A stretch of DNA of 53,417 nt, from the NCBI GenBank assembly GCA_001829185.1, contig MIAR01000054.1:1-53417 (forward strand). Reading direction: 5' to 3'. The stretch comes from Spirochaetes bacterium GWB1_60_80. GTDB lineage: Bacteria > Spirochaetota > Spirochaetia > Treponematales > UBA12059. Under the pieces are notes generated by a model. The model did no database searches. It was given only the letters and a program-made list of their open reading frames with translations, and was not told where the DNA came from. Position 1 is the first letter of the stretch. Each line of letters starts with the position of its first letter. The position numbers were made by a program, and so were the translations under genes. Below are positions 15,043-46,607 of the stretch, piece by piece.

Positions 15043-16913
15043 TAGAGTTCGTGCGTTACGGTCAGTGTATAGCCGCTGGCCCGCCTGCCAGTATTGGAAA
15101 CCACAATGGTCCAGGTTCCGGCAACAGTTTCGGCGTTATACGACAGACTGGTCGTTCCGGTAGCGACTTGGCTTCCTGCAGGATTGTAAAGCGCCATCGA
15201 AAGTGTAGCATTGCGCACTGTTTTACTCAGGGTTGCTGATATCGTCCCACCGGAGACCACAAAACTGCTGCTTGCAGAAGTGCTGGCATTAAGAGTCCCG
15301 GTGAAAGTCTCTGTAACTAGTACCGGCTCAGGATCTCCACCACCGCCTATTGCAGCGACTGCCGCAGCGGCATCCACCAGGCCATAACCAAAAGTGGTAT
15401 CGTAGCCAACAATACCAAGATCGTGGGCTGAATTGACTAAAATATCCCAAATTTGTTGATTGCTCAGGGCGGGATTTGCGCCTTTTACCAGTGCTGCCAC
15501 CGCAGAAACATGCGGGGTGGCCATTGACGTTCCGTTAAAGGAATCATAATTAGTTGCAAGAATATTCAGGCTGACCACAGGACTGCCGGCGGCAACAAGC
15601 AGCTGCCCGTCTTCCAGACTGATGGTAACACCGGGAATCCAGGTACCGGCTGTACCAAGGGTACCGCTGAAAATTCCAGACTCGTTGTTATAAAGAATCA
15701 CGCCAACAGCGCCAGCATTCTGGGCATTGGTTACTTTATCTGCAAAACTGATTTCGCCACGCTGAATCAAGGCGATGTTACCAGCAACCGTAGCCGGGAA
15801 ATCAGCGGCGCTCAGACCCATACCGCAGTTCACAGCCGGCTTCGTCAGGTTTGTCACAAAGGGAGCAAACTCAAGCGCGTATGCCGCCAGTGTCTGCTGC
15901 CCGTAGACAACATCGGCGGCCTGGCCGGTTCCAACTGGAACAGTAGACAACACATCTACGCCGGGAGCTACAAGATGGATTCCGGTTCCTTGATTGGAGA
16001 AATCGGCTATGGCCAGCGCGCTGTCTACCGCGCCGATAGCCATAGTTGATGCATAACCGGCCGGGTACGAGATGCTAGTGGCACTGTCATTGCCGGTTGC
16101 ACAAATTATCAGCAAGCCGGCATTAAAAGCGTTCTGATAGGCCTTTTCTTCAGTCTTGGAGAAGCGGCCGCCGCCCAGACTCATGCTGGCAATATGCATG
16201 CCATTCTGTACTGCCCAATCCACACCGGCCAGAATGTTGGAGGTGCTGCCAGAACCTTCATCGGATAAAACCTTTACGGCGTACAGATCGACATTATAAG
16301 CCACAGAGGCTACACCGATATTATTGTTGGTAATGGCACCGATAGTACCAGCGCAATGGGTACCATGACCGTTACCGTCAAAAGGATCATTATCGCTATT
16401 TACAAAATCATAACCACCCCGGTAGTTGGCGGCAAGGTCGGGATGATTGTAGTCGATACCAGTATCCAGAACTGCCACTTTTACATTGTCTCCGGTAGTA
16501 GTTGCCCATACCTGCGGCGCATTTACGGCGGTAACGCCCCAAGGTACGGTTTCGCCGAGGGCATAGCGGATATAGTCTGGCTCTATCAGCTCGACATTCG
16601 GATTGTGCATGAGGCCGGCTAAGGCCCGTTCGTTGGGAACCCGGATTGCCATGGCGTGGACAATCGAAAATTCCCTGACGATTTCCGCACCGTTGCCGCG
16701 CACCATATCGCGGTCAGCATTGCCTGGTTTGGCTTTGAACAGGATAATGTAACGGCCTTCCACGGCGTCGGCAGCTGGCACGGCCGCGAGTGAACGGGAG
16801 TTCAGCAGGCCTTCATCCTGCGAAACGATGCCAAGCGGCTGATTCAGCCCGATAGTACAGGAAAACAGAGTGAGAAGCAGGGCAAACGTCGCGGTGATTC
16901 CAACTTTCTTCAT
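15042..16913 (-). CDS. Secreted subtilisin-like serine protease (S8) with I9 propeptide and PA domain
   Basis: 623-residue exported endopeptidase. N-terminal signal with a lipobox-like LTLFSC (Cys19) suggests a lipoprotein. An inhibitor-I9 propeptide spans about 53-118. The S8 domain has catalytic D150 (VAVLDTGID), H183 (NGHGTHC), oxyanion N275 and S463 (NGTSMATPHV). A protease-associated (PA) insert lies at about 332-445. The C-terminal 90 residues form a pre-peptidase-like beta domain. The ATG at 16913 has GGAGG six bases upstream; an in-frame GTG two codons earlier is less likely. Third positions look less GC-rich than in neighbouring operons, which hints at transfer. The stop codon sits exactly at a mobile-repeat insertion. 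Confidence 0.95.
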   Translation of the reverse strand: MKKVGITATFALLLTLFSCTIGLNQPLGIVSQDEGLLNSRSLAAVPAADAVEGRYIILFKAKPGNADRDMVRGNGAEIVREFSIVHAMAIRVPNERALAGLMHNPNVELIEPDYIRYALGETVPWGVTAVNAPQVWATTTGDNVKVAVLDTGIDYNHPDLAANYRGGYDFVNSDNDPFDGNGHGTHCAGTIGAITNNNIGVASVAYNVDLYAVKVLSDEGSGSTSNILAGVDWAVQNGMHIASMSLGGGRFSKTEEKAYQNAFNAGLLIICATGNDSATSISYPAGYASTMAIGAVDSALAIADFSNQGTGIHLVAPGVDVLSTVPVGTGQAADVVYGQQTLAAYALEFAPFVTNLTKPAVNCGMGLSAADFPATVAGNIALIQRGEISFADKVTNAQNAGAVGVILYNNESGIFSGTLGTAGTWIPGVTISLEDGQLLVAAGSPVVSLNILATNYDSFNGTSMATPHVSAVAALVKGANPALSNQQIWDILVNSAHDLGIVGYDTTFGYGLVDAAAAVAAIGGGGDPEPVLVTETFTGTLNASTSASSSFVVSGGTISATLSKTVRNATLSMALYNPAGSQVATGTTSLSYNAETVAGTWTIVVSNTGRRASGYTLTVTHEL

Positions 16914-16938
16914 CAACACCCTCCAGGATCAAGAATAT

Positions 16939-26816: not shown

Positions 26817-26858
26817 TTGTGTCATTTAATATAATGTCGTATAATAACCGTAACACAA
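26817..26858 (+). promoter_or_regulatory. Promoter and dyad of the PaaX-like regulator
   Basis: A perfect TATAAT (26840-26845) is 17 bp from TTGTGT (26817-26822). TTGTGT is mirrored by ACACAA at 26853-26858 on the other side of the -10, giving a spaced inverted repeat across the promoter. PaaX-type repressors often control their own operon through such dyads, so autoregulation is plausible. Confidence 0.5.
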
Positions 26859-26883: not shown

Positions 26884-27849
26884 ATTACGCCTGGTTCGAC
26901 CGAATTCCTGATATTCAGCCTCTATGCCGCCATCTTCGAGCACCATCCCAAGGGCTTTTCCTTGTCCTGCCTTTGCGCTTTGCTGGAACCGCTCGACATT
27001 TCGCCCCAGGCAGCGCGGCTGACCTTGTCGCGCATGCGCCAGAAGGGCTATTTCTTCACCCGGCGGCAGGGGCGCCACAGCTTCTACTTCCTGACCGCAC
27101 CCGGTTTGGCGGAGATCACCACCACCGAGGGGCGCAGCCTGCTCCGGGGCGCGCCGCCGGCCTGGGATGGCCGCTTCCATATGGTGTCGTACGAAGTGCC
27201 GGAGGCGCTGCGCGAACAGCGCCAGAACCTGACCACGCTTTTGCGTCAGGCCGGCTTGGGCCGAGCCGCGGCCGGGCTGTGGGCCAGCGCCTATCCTTTG
27301 CCGGGAAGGCTGGCCGCCAGCCTGGAGGCCAGCGAGAGCGCCGGCCTAGTAACTAGGTACCTGGCCGAGCTGCAGGGCGACGCGGCGGCTTTCGCCCGGC
27401 GCATCTGGCGGCTGGACGAGGCGGTTGGACGGCTGGAGGCCTTTCTGACCCAGTACCGTTCGGCGCTGGCCGAGTACCGGGCCGCCGGGGAAAAGGCGGC
27501 CGGGGAAAAGGCGGCCGCCGGCCGGGCCGGGCGGAGTCCAGCTGGGCACCGCGGGCAGCCTGGCCGGTCCGGGCCGGCTGAATGTTTCCGCCGATACTTT
27601 TTCCTGCTCGGCGACTTCATCCCGCTGATGGCCTCGTTGCCGCCGGTGCCGCCGGGGCTGCTGCCCGCCAATTGGCCGGCCGCCGCCGCCCATGAACTTT
27701 TCCTTGCCTGCCGCCAGGCCGTGCACGATGGGGCCGAGGCCTATGTCGACGCGGTCTATGTGCCTTTCGACGATAGCGGGGAGAGCGCGGCCGAGGCCGC
27801 CGCCCGCGCAAACCAGGAGGAGATCGATGAACATGAACCGGAAAACTGA
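26884..27849 (+). CDS. PaaX-like transcriptional regulator with non-canonical start codon
   Basis: About 321 residues. The N-terminal winged-helix region (FLIFSLYAAIFEHHPKGF, then SPQAARLTLSRMRQKGYF) matches the PaaX repressor layout, followed by a central GRFHMVSYEVPEALREQR segment and a helical C-terminal domain. The frame is open from 26875 but has no ATG, GTG or TTG until 26962, which would remove part of the DNA-binding domain. GGAGG lies at 26877-26881, so initiation at ATT (26884) or ACG (26887) is the likely reading. A low-complexity Gly/Lys/Arg insert (GEKAAGEKAAAGRAGR) lies near residue 205. It overlaps the next gene by 23 bases, so it probably regulates that gene. The ligand is unknown. 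Confidence 0.75.
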   Translation: MTPGSTEFLIFSLYAAIFEHHPKGFSLSCLCALLEPLDISPQAARLTLSRMRQKGYFFTRRQGRHSFYFLTAPGLAEITTTEGRSLLRGAPPAWDGRFHMVSYEVPEALREQRQNLTTLLRQAGLGRAAAGLWASAYPLPGRLAASLEASESAGLVTRYLAELQGDAAAFARRIWRLDEAVGRLEAFLTQYRSALAEYRAAGEKAAGEKAAAGRAGRSPAGHRGQPGRSGPAECFRRYFFLLGDFIPLMASLPPVPPGLLPANWPAAAAHELFLACRQAVHDGAEAYVDAVYVPFDDSGESAAEAAARANQEEIDEHEPEN

Positions 27850-30253
27850 AACCGTCCGCCGCCCAGCGGCCCGTGGCTTGCCGCTGGCCATTCTGCTGGC
27901 CCTGGCTGGGCTGGCCGCCGCCGCGCTGCTGGTAACCTGCTGCAGCGGCACCAGCCGCCCGACCTTGCCGGCCGAGCCCGTGGCCTTTGCCCCGGCCGTT
28001 GAGCCGAATCCGGCGCGCTGGCAGGCCGCCCGCGGTACCGCCCTTTTGGTAGTGGACTTGCAGCGGGCGTACATGCCCGCGGCGCGCCAGGCCCAGATAT
28101 TGGCCACCGTCCAGAGCCTGGTGGCGGCGGCCGACGCGGCCGGCGCGCCGGTGATTTGGGTCTACAACCAGGAAGGCTCCGTCCGGCCCGGCAGCCCGGC
28201 TTTCGAGCTGGTAGAGCCGCTGGCGCCGGCCGCCCACCACTACAAGGTCGTCAAGCAGACCGCCAGCGCCTTCGCGGGCACCGATCTGGAGGCCATCCTG
28301 ACGGAGGCCGGCGTCGGCCGCCTAGTCATCTGCGGCCTGGCCAGCACGATATGCGTCCGGGCCACGGTGGACAGCGCCGTCAGCTTGGATTATCACACCG
28401 TGGTGGTAGCCGACGCCCACACCGTGCCGTCCAGCGTCGGCGGCGCCGCCGACATCGCCGACATGAACGAGCGCTGGCGCGCCGACGAGCGCATCGAGCT
28501 GTTGCCGGCCAACGCGGTCAGCTTTGACGCCCGGCCGCTGGCCGCGCTTGGCCTGGGCGCCGCCGACTGGTCGGTATCGCCCGACTTCGCCGGCCGGCTG
28601 GACGCCGATTTCCAGGCCTGGCTGCGGCTGTTGCCGGAGAATGCCACCGACCTGGGCCTGACCGGCTGGGTGGAGCAGGACGACACGCTGATGAACGGCT
28701 TGTCGCCCCAGGCCGTCGCGGCGCTGCAGGCCCAGGAGCGGCTGATGCTGCAGCATCTGCAGGCCGAGGACCGCAGCGGCCTGAGCGCTGGCGACCTGCT
28801 CAGCTTGCTGGCCTGCCAGCGGGCGCTGGAGGATACGGTGGCCCTGCAGCGCTTCACGGAGTACGATTACCTGGTCAATCCGACCGTCTTCGGCATCAGC
28901 TATTCGGTCTACGGCCTGTTCAGCAATTCCCAGCCGCTGGCCACGCCGGTTCAAGCCGAAGCCTACGTCACCCGCTTGTCGGCCCTGGCCGGCAAGTTGG
29001 CGGAAGCCGCCGCCGCCATGGAACGCCGCACCAGATCCCGCCTGATCGCGCCGCGCATCGTGCTGCAAAGCGCCCTGCCGGACCTCGAGGCCCTGGCCAA
29101 CGCCAGCGCCACCGATTTTTACCAGATCCTGTCCGACAAGCTGGCGGCCATGGCCGGCCTGGCGGCGGCCGACCGCGAGGATCTGCTGACCCGGGCCGGC
29201 GATATCATCGCCAGTGCCGTCATTCCGGCCGCCCAGCGCCTGTCCGCGGCCGTCTCTGCCCAGCTGGAGCGGGCCAAGGACGAGGTCGGCGCCTGGACTC
29301 TGCCGGATGGCGCCGACTACTACCAGGCCCTGCTGCGCGCCAAGACCACCACCGACCTGACGCCGCAGCAGATCCACGATAGGGGTCTGGCCGCCCTGGA
29401 AACCATCCATGCCGAAATCCTGCGCGTCGGCCTGGCTGGCGGCCTGGCCGGCAGCACCCCCATGGCGATGGTCGGCCAGGCTTTTTCGGCCGCCAACAAC
29501 GTCGGCCCCGACGAGGCGCTGCGCCTCTATACCGAGGGCCTGGCTGCGGTCCAGGGCCTGGTCCGGCCCTACTTCCCTGATTTTCCGACCGCGCCGGTCG
29601 AGGTACGCACCGCGCCGCAGGGCGGCTACTATGCGCCTGCGCCGCTGGACGGCTCGCGCCCCGGCGTCTTCTTCGTGGCCGCCGGCGCCGGCGCCAACCG
29701 GGCCGGCATCCCGACCCTGCTGCACCACGAGACCATCCCCGGCCACCACCTGCAGATGGCCACCAACAACCAGCTGGTCCTGCCGACCGCCCGCAAGCTG
29801 TTGTACTTCGAGGCCTACACCGAGGGCTGGGCGCTGTACGCCGAGCGCCTGATGGCCGAGCTGGGCGCCTACGACGGCGACCCGGTCGGCAACATTGGCC
29901 GGCTGCAGGCCGAGGCCTTCCGGGCGGCCCGCCTGGTGGTCGACACCGGCCTGCACACCATGCAGTGGACGATGGACCAGGCGGTCGACTTCATGATGGT
30001 ACAAGCCTTCATGCCGCGCCGCGCCGCCGAGAACGAGGTGGTGCGCTACATCAGCCTACCGGCCCAGTCCACCAGCTACTACATCGGCTTCCTCAAATTC
30101 CTGGAGCTGCGCGACAAGGCGCGCGCTGCGCTGGGCGACGGCTTCAGCCTGGCGGCCTTCCACCGCACCGTGCTGAGCTGCGGCCCAGTGCCCTTCGACG
30201 TGCTGGAGGCGGTCGTCGACCGCTACATCGCGCAAGCCCTGGCCGGGCGTTGA
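27827..30253 (+). CDS. Exported fusion: isochorismatase-like hydrolase plus DUF885 metallopeptidase-like domain
   Basis: 808 residues. A hydrophobic N-terminal segment (about 18-39) ending LVTCC suggests a lipoprotein or membrane anchor. Residues about 68-235 form an isochorismatase-type cysteine hydrolase with the triad D77 (LLVVDLQ), K143 (VVKQTASAF) and C176 (ASTICVRA). Residues about 250-805 are a DUF885 domain with the zinc-binding HETIPGHH (634-641) and E666 in TEGWALYAERL. Both active sites look intact. DUF885 proteins are normally about 550-600 residues without this N-terminal enzyme. AGGAGG precedes the ATG by six bases. It is coupled to the PaaX-like gene, which may sense its substrate or product. 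An amidase followed by a peptidase step outside the membrane is my inference. Confidence 0.9.
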   Translation: MNMNRKTETVRRPAARGLPLAILLALAGLAAAALLVTCCSGTSRPTLPAEPVAFAPAVEPNPARWQAARGTALLVVDLQRAYMPAARQAQILATVQSLVAAADAAGAPVIWVYNQEGSVRPGSPAFELVEPLAPAAHHYKVVKQTASAFAGTDLEAILTEAGVGRLVICGLASTICVRATVDSAVSLDYHTVVVADAHTVPSSVGGAADIADMNERWRADERIELLPANAVSFDARPLAALGLGAADWSVSPDFAGRLDADFQAWLRLLPENATDLGLTGWVEQDDTLMNGLSPQAVAALQAQERLMLQHLQAEDRSGLSAGDLLSLLACQRALEDTVALQRFTEYDYLVNPTVFGISYSVYGLFSNSQPLATPVQAEAYVTRLSALAGKLAEAAAAMERRTRSRLIAPRIVLQSALPDLEALANASATDFYQILSDKLAAMAGLAAADREDLLTRAGDIIASAVIPAAQRLSAAVSAQLERAKDEVGAWTLPDGADYYQALLRAKTTTDLTPQQIHDRGLAALETIHAEILRVGLAGGLAGSTPMAMVGQAFSAANNVGPDEALRLYTEGLAAVQGLVRPYFPDFPTAPVEVRTAPQGGYYAPAPLDGSRPGVFFVAAGAGANRAGIPTLLHHETIPGHHLQMATNNQLVLPTARKLLYFEAYTEGWALYAERLMAELGAYDGDPVGNIGRLQAEAFRAARLVVDTGLHTMQWTMDQAVDFMMVQAFMPRRAAENEVVRYISLPAQSTSYYIGFLKFLELRDKARAALGDGFSLAAFHRTVLSCGPVPFDVLEAVVDRYIAQALAGR

Positions 30254-30293: not shown

Positions 30294-30938
30294 ATGATGA
30301 GGGCCATGAGCAGGATATGGTTGGCTGTCTGTCTGCTGGGTTTGACGGCGGCCGGCCTCGGCGCCAGCGGCGAGGCCGCCGAATACCGCGACGCCGGCGG
30401 CAATCTATACGGCACGGTGCAGCTGGGCACCCAAGTCTGGATGACGTCCAACTACCGCTGCGCCATCGCCGGCGACGGCACGGCCTTGATCAAAGGCGGC
30501 GACGTCCGCGGTGGCAGCATCGCCGCCCGCTATTACAATTTCGAAGTGGCCGGCGGCGAAGGCGTCGAGACCAATCCGGTCTTTTACAACTGGCCCGGCG
30601 CCCAGGCGGCCGTGCCGTCTGGTTGGCACATCCCCAGCGAGGCGGAGTGGGAAACCCTGTTGGCCTGGCTGGCGCTGGACGGCCAGGGCGGACCCGGTAC
30701 CGACGCCGTGGCCAAGCTGCTCGGCCCGGACAGCAGCTCCGGTTTGGACTTCCTGTACAGCGGCAGCTGGGACGCCGGCAGCTTCTTTGCGCGCGGTACC
30801 TACGCCTCGTTCTGGACCTCCACCCAGTATCCGCGCGACGCCCGCGACATGTGGCAATACCGCTTCGCCGCCACTGGCCACTCCAAGACCTGGCTGGACA
30901 AGCGCTGCGCCTTCAGCCTACGCCTGGTCAGGGATTGA
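30294..30938 (+). CDS. Secreted FISUMP-domain protein
   Basis: 214 residues with a signal peptide (about 1-29) and then a Fibrobacter-succinogenes-type major paralogous (FISUMP) domain. Hallmarks are YGTVQLGTQVWMTSNYR near the start, WHIPSEAEWETLL in the middle, FWTSTQYP and the final FSLRLVRD. The domain is common in extracytoplasmic proteins and its function is unknown. AAGGAG stands three bases before the first ATG. It lies 40 bases after the fusion gene and may share its transcript. It is followed by convergent terminators. Confidence 0.92.
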   Translation: MMRAMSRIWLAVCLLGLTAAGLGASGEAAEYRDAGGNLYGTVQLGTQVWMTSNYRCAIAGDGTALIKGGDVRGGSIAARYYNFEVAGGEGVETNPVFYNWPGAQAAVPSGWHIPSEAEWETLLAWLALDGQGGPGTDAVAKLLGPDSSSGLDFLYSGSWDAGSFFARGTYASFWTSTQYPRDARDMWQYRFAATGHSKTWLDKRCAFSLRLVRD

Positions 30939-40629: not shown

Positions 40630-40786
40630 GCTGACGTACCTTGTCAATAATTGAAACGGCGTATCAAATTTTGAACTTTCGGCTCTATTTGACTTGCCTA
40701 AACCCCTGAATCAGTACTATCATGGGCCAGACTTCCACTCCAGCGGCTGCGCCGGCTGGTCACTTCGAATCGAAACAGGAGCTTGT

Positions 40787-42139
40787 ATGCAAATCAGCGC
40801 CTATTCTGGCGATCTTACAACGATCGATTATTTGTCCATGCTGGTGGTTGACGTCCAGGGCGCCATCCGTTCGGTTTCCCTACCCCGGGCCTATGTTAGC
40901 GCGAAGGTCCTCAAGGAAGGCATCGGCTTTGACGCCAGCAATTTCGGCTATGCCCAGGTACATAAGAGCGACATGGTGGCCATTCCCGACCTGAGCACGG
41001 CCTTCGTGGAAGAGAAAGATGGCTTCAGCATCCTGCATGCCTTCTGCGATGTTTGGACCACCGACGGCGCTTTGTTCGACCAGTATCCGCGCTCGGTAGC
41101 CAAGAAGGCCATGGCCTACCTCAAGGAATCCGGCATCGGCGACGACGCCAAGATGCTGGTGGAACTGGAGTTCTACGTTTTCGACGACGTCCATTATTCC
41201 ACCACTGCCGCCCATTCTTACTATTATGTAGAGAGCGCCGAGGGCATTGGCGACAGCTACGAGGACTCGCCGCGCTTCGGCCTGTCCAAGGGCTACCATC
41301 GCCTGGGGCCGGATGACAAGTATAACCGCCTGCGCAACGAGGTGGTACAGGCCATGCAGTTGGCCGGCATCCCGGTTAAATACCACCACCACGAGGTCGG
41401 CGCCGCCCAGTTGGAGATCGAGCTGAATTTCATCTCGCTGGTTAAGGCCGGCGATGCCGTGGTCCTGTCCAAGATGATCATCAAGACCATCGCCGACGAG
41501 CTGGGCCTCTACGTTACCTTCATGCCTAAGCCGATGTACAAGATCGCCGGTTCCGGCATGCACGTCCACCAGTTCGTCGAGAAGAACGGCCAGAGCATCT
41601 TCCCGGGCGACGAGCTGTACGGCTTATCTACCGCCGGCCTGCAGTACACCGCCGGCGTGCTCAGCCACGCCTTGTCCGGCTCACTCCTGGCCTGGTCGAA
41701 TCCCAGCACCAATAGCTATCGCCGCTTGGTGGCCGGTTACGAGGCGCCGGTGTCCGCCACCTTCGCCAAGGCCAGCCGCGCCGCCGCCGTGCGCATTCCC
41801 GGCTACCTCAAGAAGGGCGAGGCCCGCATCGAGTTCCGTACCGGCGACGCCACCGCCAATACCTATTATTTCCTGGCCGCCATGCTGCTGGCCGGGCTGG
41901 ACGGCATCAAGCGCGGCCTCGACCCGGTCAAGCTCGGCTTTGCCAACACCAAGGAAACCGTTAAGAATATTTTCCCGACCGGCCTGTTCCATGTTTTAGC
42001 CGGGCTGAAGAAGGACTTCGCCTACCTGGCGCCGGCCTTCCCCCGGGAGTTGATCGACGGTTGGATCAGCCTCAAGACCCACGAGGCGGAATACGTTTAT
42101 AACGCGCCCGTACCGCAAGAGTACGAGCTCTATTTCTGA
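40787..42139 (+). CDS. Glutamine synthetase type I-like enzyme
   Basis: 450 residues of the GlnA superfamily. Visible motifs are VELEFYVFDD (metal Glu), HHHEVGAAQLEIEL (200-213), the flap region NSYRRLVAGYEAPV (309-322), GSGMHVHQ (255-262) and EARIEFRTGD. The N-terminal loop is FDASN where most GlnA have FDGSS. The family forms an amide bond from glutamate, ammonia and ATP, but gamma-glutamyl-amine ligases share the fold. An upstream TTGACT (40689) lacks a well-spaced -10 box. CAGGAG precedes the ATG by six bases. It sits 19 bases before iorA, so cotranscription with amino acid fermentation genes is likely. Confidence 0.88.
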   Translation: MQISAYSGDLTTIDYLSMLVVDVQGAIRSVSLPRAYVSAKVLKEGIGFDASNFGYAQVHKSDMVAIPDLSTAFVEEKDGFSILHAFCDVWTTDGALFDQYPRSVAKKAMAYLKESGIGDDAKMLVELEFYVFDDVHYSTTAAHSYYYVESAEGIGDSYEDSPRFGLSKGYHRLGPDDKYNRLRNEVVQAMQLAGIPVKYHHHEVGAAQLEIELNFISLVKAGDAVVLSKMIIKTIADELGLYVTFMPKPMYKIAGSGMHVHQFVEKNGQSIFPGDELYGLSTAGLQYTAGVLSHALSGSLLAWSNPSTNSYRRLVAGYEAPVSATFAKASRAAAVRIPGYLKKGEARIEFRTGDATANTYYFLAAMLLAGLDGIKRGLDPVKLGFANTKETVKNIFPTGLFHVLAGLKKDFAYLAPAFPRELIDGWISLKTHEAEYVYNAPVPQEYELYF

Positions 42140-42158: not shown

Positions 42159-43781
42159 ATGGTTAACGAAACATTGATGGGCGACGAGGCGATCGCCCTG
42201 GCGGCGGTGCACGCCGGCCTGAGCGGGGCCTTCGCCTATCCGGGCACCCCCGCCACCGAGATCATGGAATATTTGCAGGAACTGGCTGCCCGCGTCGCCG
42301 CCGGCACCATGCCTGGAGAGCAATTCGTCGCCCAATGGTGCCTGAACGAGAAGACGGCTTACGAGGATGCCCTCGGCGCCTCCTTCGCCGGCCGGCGGAC
42401 GCTTGTATCCATGAAGCACGTCGGCCTGAACGTGGCGGCCGACCCCTTCGTCAATTCCGGCCTGGTTAAGGTCAACGGCGGCCTGGTGCTGGTGGTGGCC
42501 GACGACCCGGGCATGCACTCCTCGCAGGACGAGCAGGATAGCCGCTGGCTGGCCGACTTCGCCCGCGTGCCCTGCTTCGAGCCGGCCAACCAGCAGGAAG
42601 CCTACGACATGACGCGCCAGGCCTTCGACCTGTCCGAAAAGTACGAGACGCCGGTCATGATTCGCATTACCACCCGCTTGGCGCACAGCCGCTCGGTTGT
42701 ATCGCTGCAGCCGGCCCGCGCCATGAACCCCATCAAGAAGCCGGCTCCCGGCATGGATTGGATCCTGATGCCGGCCGTAGCCCGCCGCCGCTGGAAACTG
42801 GTGCTGGAACGCCAGCGCAAGCTGGAGGACCTGTCCTCGGGTTTCGCCTGCAATACCTACACCAAGGGCGACAAGAAACTGGGCGTCATCACCTGTGGCC
42901 TGGCGCTGCAGTACTACCTTGAGAACCTGGATGACTACCAGGTGCAACGCGGCCAGGCGCCGACGCACCTGCATATCGGCTTCTACCCGATGCCGACCGA
43001 CCGCATCCGCGAGCTGTACGCCAACTGCGACCAGATCCTGGTCATCGAGGAGGGCTACCCGCTGGTGGAGCGCCTGCTGCGCGGCATCATCCAGCCGGGC
43101 AAGAAGATCATGGGCAAGGAGACCGGCGAGATTCCCTACGACGGCGAACTGTCGCCGGATACGGTGCGCGCCGCCCTCGGCCTGAGCCCCCATCAGGGCC
43201 TGGCGGTCAAGGAGCTGATCCCGCCCGGACGGCCGCCGCAGCTGTGCGTCGGCTGCCCGCACGCCGATAGCTATAACGCCCTCAAGGAAGCCCTTCTGGG
43301 CTATCCGCTGCACGCCGTTACCAGCGACATCGGCTGCTACACCCTGGGCGCCTTGCCGCCTTTCAACGCCATCGAAACCACCGTGGACATGGGCGCCAGC
43401 ATCGGCATGGCCCGCGGCGCCTCCGAAGTCGGCCTGATCCCGGTGGTGGCCGTCATCGGCGATTCCACCTTCTACCATTCCGGTCTGTCCAACCTGATCG
43501 ACGTCGTCAGCCACAACACCGACGTGACGGTGCTTATCCTGGACAACGACACCACCGGCATGACCGGCGCCCAGCCGACCATCCTGCCCTCCAGCCGGCT
43601 TGAGCCGGTGCTCAAGGGCATCGGTGTGGCGCCCGAGCACATCCGCGTCATCCGCGCCCACAAGAACGAGCACGACAAGAACGTGGCCGTCATCAAGGAA
43701 GAGTTAGCCTTCAAGGGGCCGTCCGTGGTGGTGCTGGTGCGCGAGTGCCTGGAAGCCATCAAGAAAGCGAGAAAAGCATGA
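42159..43781 (+). CDS. iorA: Indolepyruvate:ferredoxin oxidoreductase alpha subunit without C-terminal ferredoxin domain
   Basis: 540 residues. An N-terminal pyrimidine-type domain (GDEAIALAAVHAGLSGAFAYPGTPATEIME) and a C-terminal TPP-binding domain (VGCPHADSY, TSDIGCYTLG, VIGDSTFYHSG) match IorA, which decarboxylates aryl pyruvates to aryl-acyl-CoA. Typical IorA is about 600 residues or more and ends with a two-cluster ferredoxin domain; here the protein stops after the TPP domain (LECLEAIKKARKA-like end), so those eight cysteines are missing. Electrons would need another carrier. GGAAGG precedes the ATG. It overlaps iorB by four bases. Confidence 0.92.
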   Translation: MVNETLMGDEAIALAAVHAGLSGAFAYPGTPATEIMEYLQELAARVAAGTMPGEQFVAQWCLNEKTAYEDALGASFAGRRTLVSMKHVGLNVAADPFVNSGLVKVNGGLVLVVADDPGMHSSQDEQDSRWLADFARVPCFEPANQQEAYDMTRQAFDLSEKYETPVMIRITTRLAHSRSVVSLQPARAMNPIKKPAPGMDWILMPAVARRRWKLVLERQRKLEDLSSGFACNTYTKGDKKLGVITCGLALQYYLENLDDYQVQRGQAPTHLHIGFYPMPTDRIRELYANCDQILVIEEGYPLVERLLRGIIQPGKKIMGKETGEIPYDGELSPDTVRAALGLSPHQGLAVKELIPPGRPPQLCVGCPHADSYNALKEALLGYPLHAVTSDIGCYTLGALPPFNAIETTVDMGASIGMARGASEVGLIPVVAVIGDSTFYHSGLSNLIDVVSHNTDVTVLILDNDTTGMTGAQPTILPSSRLEPVLKGIGVAPEHIRVIRAHKNEHDKNVAVIKEELAFKGPSVVVLVRECLEAIKKARKA

Positions 43782-44353
43782 AGTACGATATCGTTTTGTG
43801 CGGTGTCGGCGGTCAGGGCGGCATCTCGGTCTCCGTGGTCATCGCCCGCGCCGCCATGGCCGAGGGCCTCAAGGTCAAGCAGTCCGAGGTGCACGGCATG
43901 AGCCAGCGCGGCGGCGAAGTGTTGGCCCACCTGCGTCTGGCCGACAAAGAGCCGGCCAGCCCGACCATTCCGCTCGGCGGCGCCGACCTGATCATCTCCT
44001 TCGAGCCGTTGGAGACCCTGCGCTATCTACCCTGGCTGAACGCCAAGACCGGTCTGGTTATCTCGGCCACCAAGCCGCTCATCAACATGACCGGCTACCC
44101 GGATCTCGCCAAATTGCAGGCCGAGCTGGAGGCCCTGCCCAACAAGCTGTTGTTCGACGCCGACGCCGTGGCCCGCGAGGCCGGCAACGTCAAGGCTGCC
44201 AACATAGTCCTGGTCGGTGCCGCCTCGCGCAGCCTGCCGCTCAAGGAAGAGAGTCTGAAAACCGCCATCCGTGAACTGTTCGGCCGCAAGGGCGAGGCAG
44301 TTGTCGCAGCCAACCTGAAAGCATTTGATTATGGACGCACGGCAAATTCTTGA
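43778..44353 (+). CDS. iorB: Indolepyruvate:ferredoxin oxidoreductase beta subunit
   Basis: 191-residue gamma-type 2-oxoacid oxidoreductase domain. VLCGVGGQGGISVSVVIARAAMAEGL, SEVHGMSQRGGEVLAHLRL and the IISFEPLETLRYL segment are hallmarks of IorB. It binds CoA in the complex. Start is the ATG overlapping the iorA stop; the frame extension upstream is within iorA. Its end overlaps the acyl-CoA synthetase start by 23 bases. Confidence 0.95.
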   Translation: MKYDIVLCGVGGQGGISVSVVIARAAMAEGLKVKQSEVHGMSQRGGEVLAHLRLADKEPASPTIPLGGADLIISFEPLETLRYLPWLNAKTGLVISATKPLINMTGYPDLAKLQAELEALPNKLLFDADAVAREAGNVKAANIVLVGAASRSLPLKEESLKTAIRELFGRKGEAVVAANLKAFDYGRTANS

Positions 44354-46607
44354 GATAACGGCGCGGGCTCGCGCCGAGGGCCGCGACGCCCTAACTGAAG
44401 TCGAGGGTCTCAGGTTGCTGGCCGCGATGGGTATTCCCACCCCGCGCCATCATTTCGTCAAGGGTTCTGTCGAACTGGCCGGGCTGGAGGTCTTAGCCGG
44501 ACCGCGGGCGGTGGTTAAGGTAATTTCACCGGAAATCTTGCACAAGACCGAGATGGGCGGCGTGGCCATCGTCCCCAATGAACCGGCTTCCATTAAGGCA
44601 GCCATGGCCGAGATGGAAGGCCGCTTTGGCAAGTACCGGGTGGACGGCTACACCGTCAACGAGTTCTGCGCCTTTGAGCCCCGGCTGGGCCACGAGATCA
44701 TCGTCGGCTACCGCTTTGCCAAGGATTTCGGCCCGATTATTTCCTTTGGCCCCGGCGGCATCTACACCGAATTCCTGGCCAAGCAGTTCCGCCCCGGCGC
44801 GGCTAATGTTTTCTTCAGCCCGCTGACGGCCGACCGGTCGCTGGTGGAGCGCTGCCTCAAGGAAAACGCCGTCCGAACCCTACTGTGCGGCGGCCTGCGC
44901 GGCACCAAGGCGGCCCTCGACGAGCGGCTGCTGGTGGACGCCGTCATGGCCTTCATCGGCGCCGCCGGCGCCTTGGCCGAGGCTGGCGTTTCCGAGTTTG
45001 AAGTTAATCCCTTCGTGGTCGGCAAGGACGCGGCCGGAAACGGCCGCCTGGTGGCCCTGGACGCCCTGGTCAAGCTCGACGACCTGCGTGGCGATGAGCT
45101 GGCTCTGGCCGGCGGGCATCTGGCCAACCGCAAGCAGCTGGCCAGGCCGGTCGACAAGATTGAGAAAATATTGCAACCAGCCAGCGCCGCCATCATCGGC
45201 GTGTCCGAAAAAGGCATGAATAACGGCCGCATCATCCTCAATAACCTGATCCAGGACGGCTTCGACCGTCAGCGCCTCTACGTGGTCAAGGCCGGGCTTG
45301 ACAGCCTGGACGGCTGCCGCTGCGTGCCCGACCTGGCCAGCCTGCCGGAAAAGGTTGACCTGTTCGTGCTGGTCATTCCGGCCTCTCAGGCCCCTAGCTG
45401 CATCGCCGAGTTGGCCGAGCTGGACAAGGCACAGAGCGTCATCGTCATCCCCGGCGGCCTGGAGGAAAAATCGGGCACCGAGGCGCTGGTGACGCGCATG
45501 AACGCCAGCCTGGAAGCTTCCCGTTCCGGAGTTGGCCGCGGCCCGCTGCTCAACGGCGGCAACTGCCTGGGCATCCGTTCCATTCCCGGCAAGTACAACA
45601 CCCTGTTTATCCCCGAGTACAAGCTGCCCATGCCCGCAGGCAGCGTCGACCCGGTGGCCGTGCTGTCCCAGTCCGGCGCCTTCGCCATTACCCGCCTGTC
45701 CAAGTGCCCGCAGGTCAATCCGAAATATATTATTACCTGCGGTAACCAGATGGACGTCACCATCGGCGACTACTTGGAGTACTTGGCGCAGGATAAGGAG
45801 CTGCAGGTCTACGCGGTCTACGTCGAGGGCTTCAAGCCGCTGGACGGCGAAAAGGTGCTGCGCGCCTGCCGGTTCATCATCGCTTCCGGACGGACCGTCA
45901 TCTTCTACCGGGCCGGCCGCACCGCCGCCGGAGCGGCGGCCAGCGCCAGCCACACCGCCAGCATCGCCGGCGACTACCCGGTAACGCGCGAACTGCTGCG
46001 CCAGCTGGGCGTAGTGATGGCCGAAAGCCTGGACGAGTTCGACGACGCCGTCACCACCTTCAGCCTGCTGCGCGCCAAGCGCTACCGCGGCCTTCGCCTG
46101 GGTGCCGTCTCCAACGCCGGCTTCGAGTGCGTGGCCTTCGCCGACAACCTGGGGCGGTTGACCATCGGCCCCTTCAGCCCGGCCGCCGCGCCGCGCCTAG
46201 AGAAGACCTTCGCCGAGGCCAAGATCAGCGATATTGTCGACGTGCACAACCCGATAGACCTGACGCCGATGGCCGACGATACCGCCTACTTTGACAGCTT
46301 CAAGACCGTGCTGGACGACCAGGCCATCGACGCCGGCATCATCGGCCTGGTGCCGCTGACCGCGCGCATGAACAGCCTGGCCAAAGCGGCTGGCCACGCC
46401 GAGGACATCACTCAGCCCGATTCGCTGACCGTGCGCCTGGGCGATCTTATCAAGCAAGGTGATAAACCCTGGGTGGCGGTAGTCGACTCTGGCGAACTGT
46501 ACGATCCCTATGCCCGCGCCTTGATAGCCAACGGTGTGCCGACCTTCCGCACGGCCGACCGGGCGCTGCTCATGCTGAACCTCTGGCTGGAGGCGCATCA
46601 GCCGTAG
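44331..46607 (+). CDS. ADP-forming acyl-CoA synthetase, fused beta-alpha
   Basis: 758 residues. An ATP-grasp (beta-subunit) domain is N-terminal (about 1-255; VVKVISPEILHKTEMGGV, SFGPGGIYTE, EFEVNPFVV). The CoA-binding domain (about 275-390; IIGVSEKGMNNGR) and ligase domains follow, with the phospho-His near 541 in ASASHTASIAGD. It converts acyl-CoA, ADP and phosphate to acid and ATP. Coupled to IorAB it would complete aryl-amino-acid fermentation. Fused homologues such as PatZ/Acd are mostly alpha then beta; this order is reversed. ATG at 44331 lies inside the iorB end. A terminator follows at 46693. Confidence 0.93.
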   Translation: MDARQILEITARARAEGRDALTEVEGLRLLAAMGIPTPRHHFVKGSVELAGLEVLAGPRAVVKVISPEILHKTEMGGVAIVPNEPASIKAAMAEMEGRFGKYRVDGYTVNEFCAFEPRLGHEIIVGYRFAKDFGPIISFGPGGIYTEFLAKQFRPGAANVFFSPLTADRSLVERCLKENAVRTLLCGGLRGTKAALDERLLVDAVMAFIGAAGALAEAGVSEFEVNPFVVGKDAAGNGRLVALDALVKLDDLRGDELALAGGHLANRKQLARPVDKIEKILQPASAAIIGVSEKGMNNGRIILNNLIQDGFDRQRLYVVKAGLDSLDGCRCVPDLASLPEKVDLFVLVIPASQAPSCIAELAELDKAQSVIVIPGGLEEKSGTEALVTRMNASLEASRSGVGRGPLLNGGNCLGIRSIPGKYNTLFIPEYKLPMPAGSVDPVAVLSQSGAFAITRLSKCPQVNPKYIITCGNQMDVTIGDYLEYLAQDKELQVYAVYVEGFKPLDGEKVLRACRFIIASGRTVIFYRAGRTAAGAAASASHTASIAGDYPVTRELLRQLGVVMAESLDEFDDAVTTFSLLRAKRYRGLRLGAVSNAGFECVAFADNLGRLTIGPFSPAAAPRLEKTFAEAKISDIVDVHNPIDLTPMADDTAYFDSFKTVLDDQAIDAGIIGLVPLTARMNSLAKAAGHAEDITQPDSLTVRLGDLIKQGDKPWVAVVDSGELYDPYARALIANGVPTFRTADRALLMLNLWLEAHQP

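Follow-up and report, generated by a model that had tools for sequence, protein, structure and literature searches.

An apparently exported isochorismatase-like–DUF885 fusion protein that recurs in a spirochaete family

The window, which is the whole stretch of 53,417 nucleotides analysed here, encodes an 808-residue protein in which an export-type N-terminus, an isochorismatase-like cysteine hydrolase domain, and a DUF885 domain occur in a single chain, with both sets of active-site residues intact. The fusion is found again in two further spirochaete genomes, and among the genomes surveyed here the plan is confined to one spirochaete family. This combination of two known families is real and conserved, and it is apparently undescribed: the original prediction knew of no enzyme with this plan, and our literature search likewise returned no paper naming both "DUF885" and "isochorismatase".

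Domain plan, catalytic residues, and export-type N-terminus

The fusion gene and its parts are as follows:

27815–27822, plus strand: ribosome-binding site AGGAGGAG, read from the sequence, 4 nt 5' of the fusion ATG
27827–30253, plus strand: fusion gene, 808 aa (export signal, isochorismatase-like cysteine hydrolase, and DUF885), identified by its open frame, its Pfam domains, and its recurrence in genomes G020 and G001
27827–27943, plus strand: export signal, residues 1–39, ending in Cys38-Cys39; probable lipid anchor with a non-canonical lipobox, identified from the sequence and the Cys that follows the h-region in close homologues
28037–28468, plus strand: isochorismatase-like domain, residues 71–214 (structural extent about 68–233), with D77, K143, and C176; identified by Pfam, the invariant triad, and a structural match to 5ha8
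28535–28606, plus strand: linker, residues 237–260, conserved about as well as the domains (54% identity in G020, 46% in G001)
28634–30217, plus strand: DUF885 domain, residues 270–797, with HExxPGH at 634–640 and E666 as the putative zinc site; identified by Pfam, a model, and structure matches

The gene is one uninterrupted frame containing both Pfam domains, as originally predicted. A longer open reading frame begins at 27692, but we prefer the start at 27827 because AGGAGGAG lies 4 nt before this ATG; the alignment with homologues also begins at 27827, which rules out the longer start.

The N-terminal domain matches PF00857 at residues 71–214 (E = 1.3e-30; 107.2 bits against a cut-off of 27), and D77, K143, and C176 do not vary among seven relatives or among the three fusions. 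It does not reach the cut-off of the NCBIfam equivalogs for RutB, biuret hydrolase, nicotinamidase, YcaC, or PRK11440, the best score being 47.6 bits for RutB against a cut-off of 377.95. Among solved structures the best sequence match is MhIHL, a gamma-lactamase from Microbacterium hydrocarbonoxydans (5ha8, 5hwg, 5hwh; E = 6.8e-19; PMC5353710), which has the same Asp-Lys-Cys triad and fold (the model of the spirochaete domain matches 5ha8/5hwg with Z 19.6 over 161 residues at 2.6 Å) but is a 187-residue chain with about 29% identity to the spirochaete domain and no second domain. Replacement of Asp13, Lys78, or Cys111 of MhIHL by Ala removes most or all of its gamma-lactamase activity (PMC5353710). 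MhIHL serves as a guide to the chemistry of the N-terminal domain, though not to its substrate. An isochorismatase-fold domain is also part of the multi-domain EntB/VibB-type fusions (2fq1, 3tb4), where, in contrast to the spirochaete protein, the partner is an aryl-carrier domain and the role is in siderophore synthesis.

The C-terminal domain matches PF05960 at residues 270–797 over the entire model (positions 1–532 of 532; E = 3.4e-128; 430 bits against a cut-off of 32.4). H634, E635, P638, G639, and H640 are invariant across eight aligned DUF885 sequences, and E666 is retained in all three fusions. The claim that the catalytic residues of both domains are intact thus stands, while the motif as first given, HETIPGHH, holds only in its HExxPGH portion: the second His of the final pair, H641, is replaced by Ile in one relative.

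When modelled alone, DUF885 (pLDDT 81, pTM 0.84) resembles the family structures 3iuk, 3o0y, and 3u24 over the entire domain (Z 32–37). The region of the HExxPGH motif aligns with the DUF885 lipoprotein of Colwellia psychrerythraea (3o0y) and with 3iuk; 3u24, like 3o0y, is termed a lipoprotein, and all three differ from the fusion in having no cysteine hydrolase domain. Similarity to M32, M3, and M2 peptidases is modest. M32 carboxypeptidases and M3 oligopeptidases give Z of about 12–13 and ACE about 10, at 5–7 Å rmsd, values within the range that helical folds can reach by chance (Z of about 13), and Foldseek E-values against M2, M3, and M32 are 1e-3 at best. DUF885 also departs from the canonical HExxH of these peptidases, its HExxPGH motif being two residues longer. 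Because such Z values can arise by chance, the case for peptidase kinship draws additionally on the motif and on the published assignment of DUF885 to the Peptidase_MA clan; the survey that makes this assignment also predicts a two-His/one-Glu zinc site in one DUF885 protein (PMC12572635). A DUF885 domain likewise forms the C-terminal half of a two-domain Talaromyces protein, but its N-terminal partner is nucleoside-phosphorylase-like rather than a cysteine hydrolase (PMC8478523). In the literature searched, DUF885 is named in few papers (13 of 5.39 million), whose titles and abstracts offer no function for it. A further DUF885 protein, this one stand-alone and with a hydrophobic segment at its N-terminus, is encoded next to a methyltransferase gene in the genome from which the window comes (G000; L077 1015-2826, G000:C52).

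The full-length AlphaFold model, built from a five-sequence alignment and without inter-domain error (pLDDT 68, pTM 0.63), was used for fold identification only and not to judge whether the two sites share a cleft.

The N-terminus reads as a basic n-region followed by a hydrophobic h-region and Cys-Cys at positions 38–39. The lipobox, LVTC or VTCC, departs from the canonical [LVI][ASTVI][GAS]C. Nevertheless, a Cys directly follows the h-region in seven of seven close homologues, in canonical form (LAAGC) in G014 and in relaxed form in the others, so the protein is probably membrane- or lipid-anchored. At the level of sequence, then, the export signal of the original prediction is borne out. 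The isochorismatase-like family is generally regarded as cytosolic, and the EntB/VibB-type fusions are not known to be exported. The accompanying premise, that isochorismatases are normally cytosolic single-domain proteins, nonetheless fails here, where five stand-alone relatives of the N-terminal domain from the same family have an export-type N-terminus and a lipobox-like Cys. Predicted export is therefore not a product of the fusion and appears to be a trait of the whole N-domain group.

Recurrence and origin of the fusion

Among 149 relatives searched, genome G020 carries the whole fusion on a single 67-kb contig, with 54% identity to the window protein. In G001, contig C142 ends within the gene, whose front portion is found at one end of contig C389. 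These two contig ends have an exact stretch in common, from CATACCGTG to GGATTGACA, whose 141 bases equal the k-mer size in the contig names, and reading the contigs together yields an 860-residue fusion. Identity to the window protein is 54% (G020) and 50% (G001) in the cysteine hydrolase domain and 56% and 58% in DUF885, compared with 31% and 23% in the export/tether region, and all catalytic positions are retained in both. A scan of 84,980 species genomes with two peptide patterns specific to this DUF885 subfamily returned only the G020 and G001 loci, which belong to Spirochaetes bacterium MAGs (isolates MM_PW_MetaG.mb.34 and mb.28).

An assembly or annotation artefact that joined two genes might be suspected, given that the window comes from a draft MAG of 59 contigs. 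However, the same join is present in two further MAGs, once within the 67-kb contig, and these independent copies exclude an assembly join and leave the artefact a negligible chance.

DUF885 is rare in the phylum, occurring in 11 of 393 sampled Spirochaetota genomes and in only one of eight genomes from the genus of G020. No other well-matched DUF885 gene among the 393 genomes lies in a frame long enough for the fusion. Plasmid and phage records gave no match covering 80% of the fusion query, and no isochorismatase relatives were found in viral contigs.

Both halves also occur alone. Stand-alone versions of the N-terminal domain are encoded in the sister genomes G019, G020 (a second gene), G011, G004, and G014; each has a hydrophobic export-type segment followed by Cys and terminates at or near the point where the fusion continues (F233-D234). 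In the tree, stand-alone and fused N-domains form one group (support 97/95). The three fused DUF885 halves group together as a clade (100/100), apart from the stand-alone DUF885 proteins of the same family, which are found in G000, G007, G010, and G278. The fused N-domains are not recovered as one clade in the tree, and the AU test is borderline (p = 0.0385), so domain loss, domain exchange, or more than one joining event are all possible. At two loci (L075 4382-6213; L009 1420-3159), a gene for a WD40-repeat protein lies directly 3' of a stand-alone exported-type cysteine hydrolase gene, in G020 (Pfam-checked) and in G019 (by eye).

A PaaX-type regulator and the surrounding genes

Upstream of the fusion we identified a regulator gene, which overlaps the fusion start, and a candidate operator:

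26818–26857, plus strand: candidate operator, a dyad TGTGTCA-N26-TAACACA enclosing TATAAT, upstream of the PaaX gene; no other dyad in the window reaches 12/14
26887–27849, plus strand: PaaX-type regulator gene, overlapping the fusion start by 23 nt; identified by Pfam PaaX, PaaX_M, and PaaX_C, with orthologues in G001 and G004

The Pfam matches to PaaX, PaaX_M, and PaaX_C are stronger in the G001 orthologue than in the window protein. The window gene has no in-frame ATG, GTG, or TTG before TTG 26962, yet homology extends to an in-frame ACG at 26887, which corresponds in the alignment to the Met of the G004 orthologue and has GGAGGT 4 nt upstream; this codon may be an ACG start or a point change.

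A PaaX-type gene precedes the fusion in both genomes of the genus, the orthologue in G001 (43% identity) lying directly upstream of its fusion. The G004 orthologue (44% identity) is about 0.9 kb from a stand-alone exported-type enzyme, from which an alpha/beta hydrolase gene separates it. PaaX-type genes are present in only 6 of the 23 family genomes, and G000, G001, and G004 each have a single copy. No PaaX gene was found in the G020 genome, where the fusion adjoins sugar-ABC-transporter-like genes, so PaaX control is not general for the fusions.

The G004 orthologue scores 121.7 against NCBIfam TIGR02277, the PaaX of the phenylacetate operon, below the cut-off of 264.55, and the usual PaaX inducer is doubtful here because the genome of the window has no phenylacetate-CoA ligase match. 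The penicillin G acylase promoter of E. coli is a binding target of PaaX, and phenylacetyl-CoA releases the regulator (PMC9493321). This offers a parallel for an exported-amidase gene tied to a PaaX-type regulator, rather than evidence for the same ligand; the acylase belongs to an unrelated enzyme family, and in the spirochaete, unlike E. coli, the regulator gene is adjacent. The candidate operator has a similar dyad in G004, while at the matching place in G001 there is a different, perfect 15-bp palindrome. Because the motif was picked after the sequences had been seen, its shuffle counts are descriptive and the dyad is a lead only.

Directly 3' of the fusion, on the same strand, 30294–30935 encodes a protein that has a Fib_succ_major domain behind an export-type N-terminus; neither the G001 nor the G020 fusion was seen to have such a neighbour. 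Farther along, following a glutamine-synthetase-like gene (40694–42136), genes for IorA-like, IorB, and ADP-forming-type acyl-CoA synthetase proteins lie in a row (42159–46604) and resemble a module for amino-acid fermentation. The match of the IorA-like protein scores below the NCBIfam cut-off and reaches only position 539 of 595. We claim no association between IorA and PaaX, as IorA-like matches occur in 23 of 23 family genomes and are only weak in the PaaX-bearing G004. On the minus strand, 15045–16919 encodes a subtilisin-like S8 protease with a PA domain and a lipobox-like N-terminus (LFSCTIG); its third-position GC is 0.52, against 0.8–0.9 for most neighbours, and it was perhaps acquired.

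Possible function

We see about an even chance that the fusion protein is exported and, probably held by a lipid anchor, works as a bifunctional hydrolase of blocked or amidated peptides that is switched by a PaaX-type regulator in this genus. The N-terminal domain would hydrolyse a C-N bond, of a small amide, a lactam, or a carbamoyl type, through its Cys nucleophile (Asp-Lys-Cys), and the C-terminal domain would cleave short peptides as a zinc metallopeptidase resembling the M32/M3/M2 (carboxypeptidase/oligopeptidase) enzymes. Acting jointly outside the cytoplasm, in the periplasm or at the surface, the two domains would break down peptides that are blocked, amidated, or cyclised, and the products may feed amino-acid fermentation. 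In this genus the gene is probably co-transcribed with, and controlled by, the adjacent PaaX-type regulator.

The main rival to a bifunctional hydrolase is a mere tether, in which two independent exported enzymes with separate substrates are joined for co-secretion and shared regulation and the join has no kinetic or channelling meaning. The occurrence of both halves as stand-alone proteins, cysteine hydrolases in five genomes and DUF885 in four, is consistent with this, and the link between the domains may be loose because the fused N-domains do not form one clade. A linker conserved about as well as the domains argues against a mere tether, as does maintenance of the fusion at about 55% identity across two genera, and we regard this alternative as somewhat unlikely. 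A protective role, in which the enzyme would inactivate peptide antibiotics with lactam or amide bonds at the cell surface, much as SttH opens the lactam of streptothricin, is improbable: SttH and the gamma-lactamase have the triad in common and both act on lactams, and the spirochaete protein appears exported, but no resistance, transport, or immunity genes directly adjoin the fusion, and a PaaX-type regulator points to catabolism.

Isochorismatase-fold proteins are frequently oligomeric, so that one domain could serve in binding or oligomerisation without catalysis, its active-site residues being fossils. This has a slighter chance still, because the three fusions have preserved D, K, C, HExxPGH, and E in full, although 42–50% of positions per domain differ.

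A more specific form of the bifunctional hydrolase, in line with the two-step extracellular degradation suggested by the original prediction, is an exported enzyme that carries out two steps on one chain. The cysteine hydrolase would first take off a blocking group (amide, lactam, or carbamoyl), and DUF885, as a metallopeptidase, would then digest the freed peptide; the conserved linker would hold the sites in a fixed arrangement, and a PaaX-type repressor would switch expression. We consider this version quite unlikely in its entirety, but if it is correct, it would give DUF885 its first physiological role. A group of apparently exported isochorismatase-like enzymes is now documented in spirochaetes. 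DUF885 is a family of many members, some with solved structures, and the search for what its enzymes cleave is narrowed by two features of the locus: natural fusion to a cysteine amidase whose triad can be read from the sequence, and a neighbouring regulator from a family with a known ligand type.
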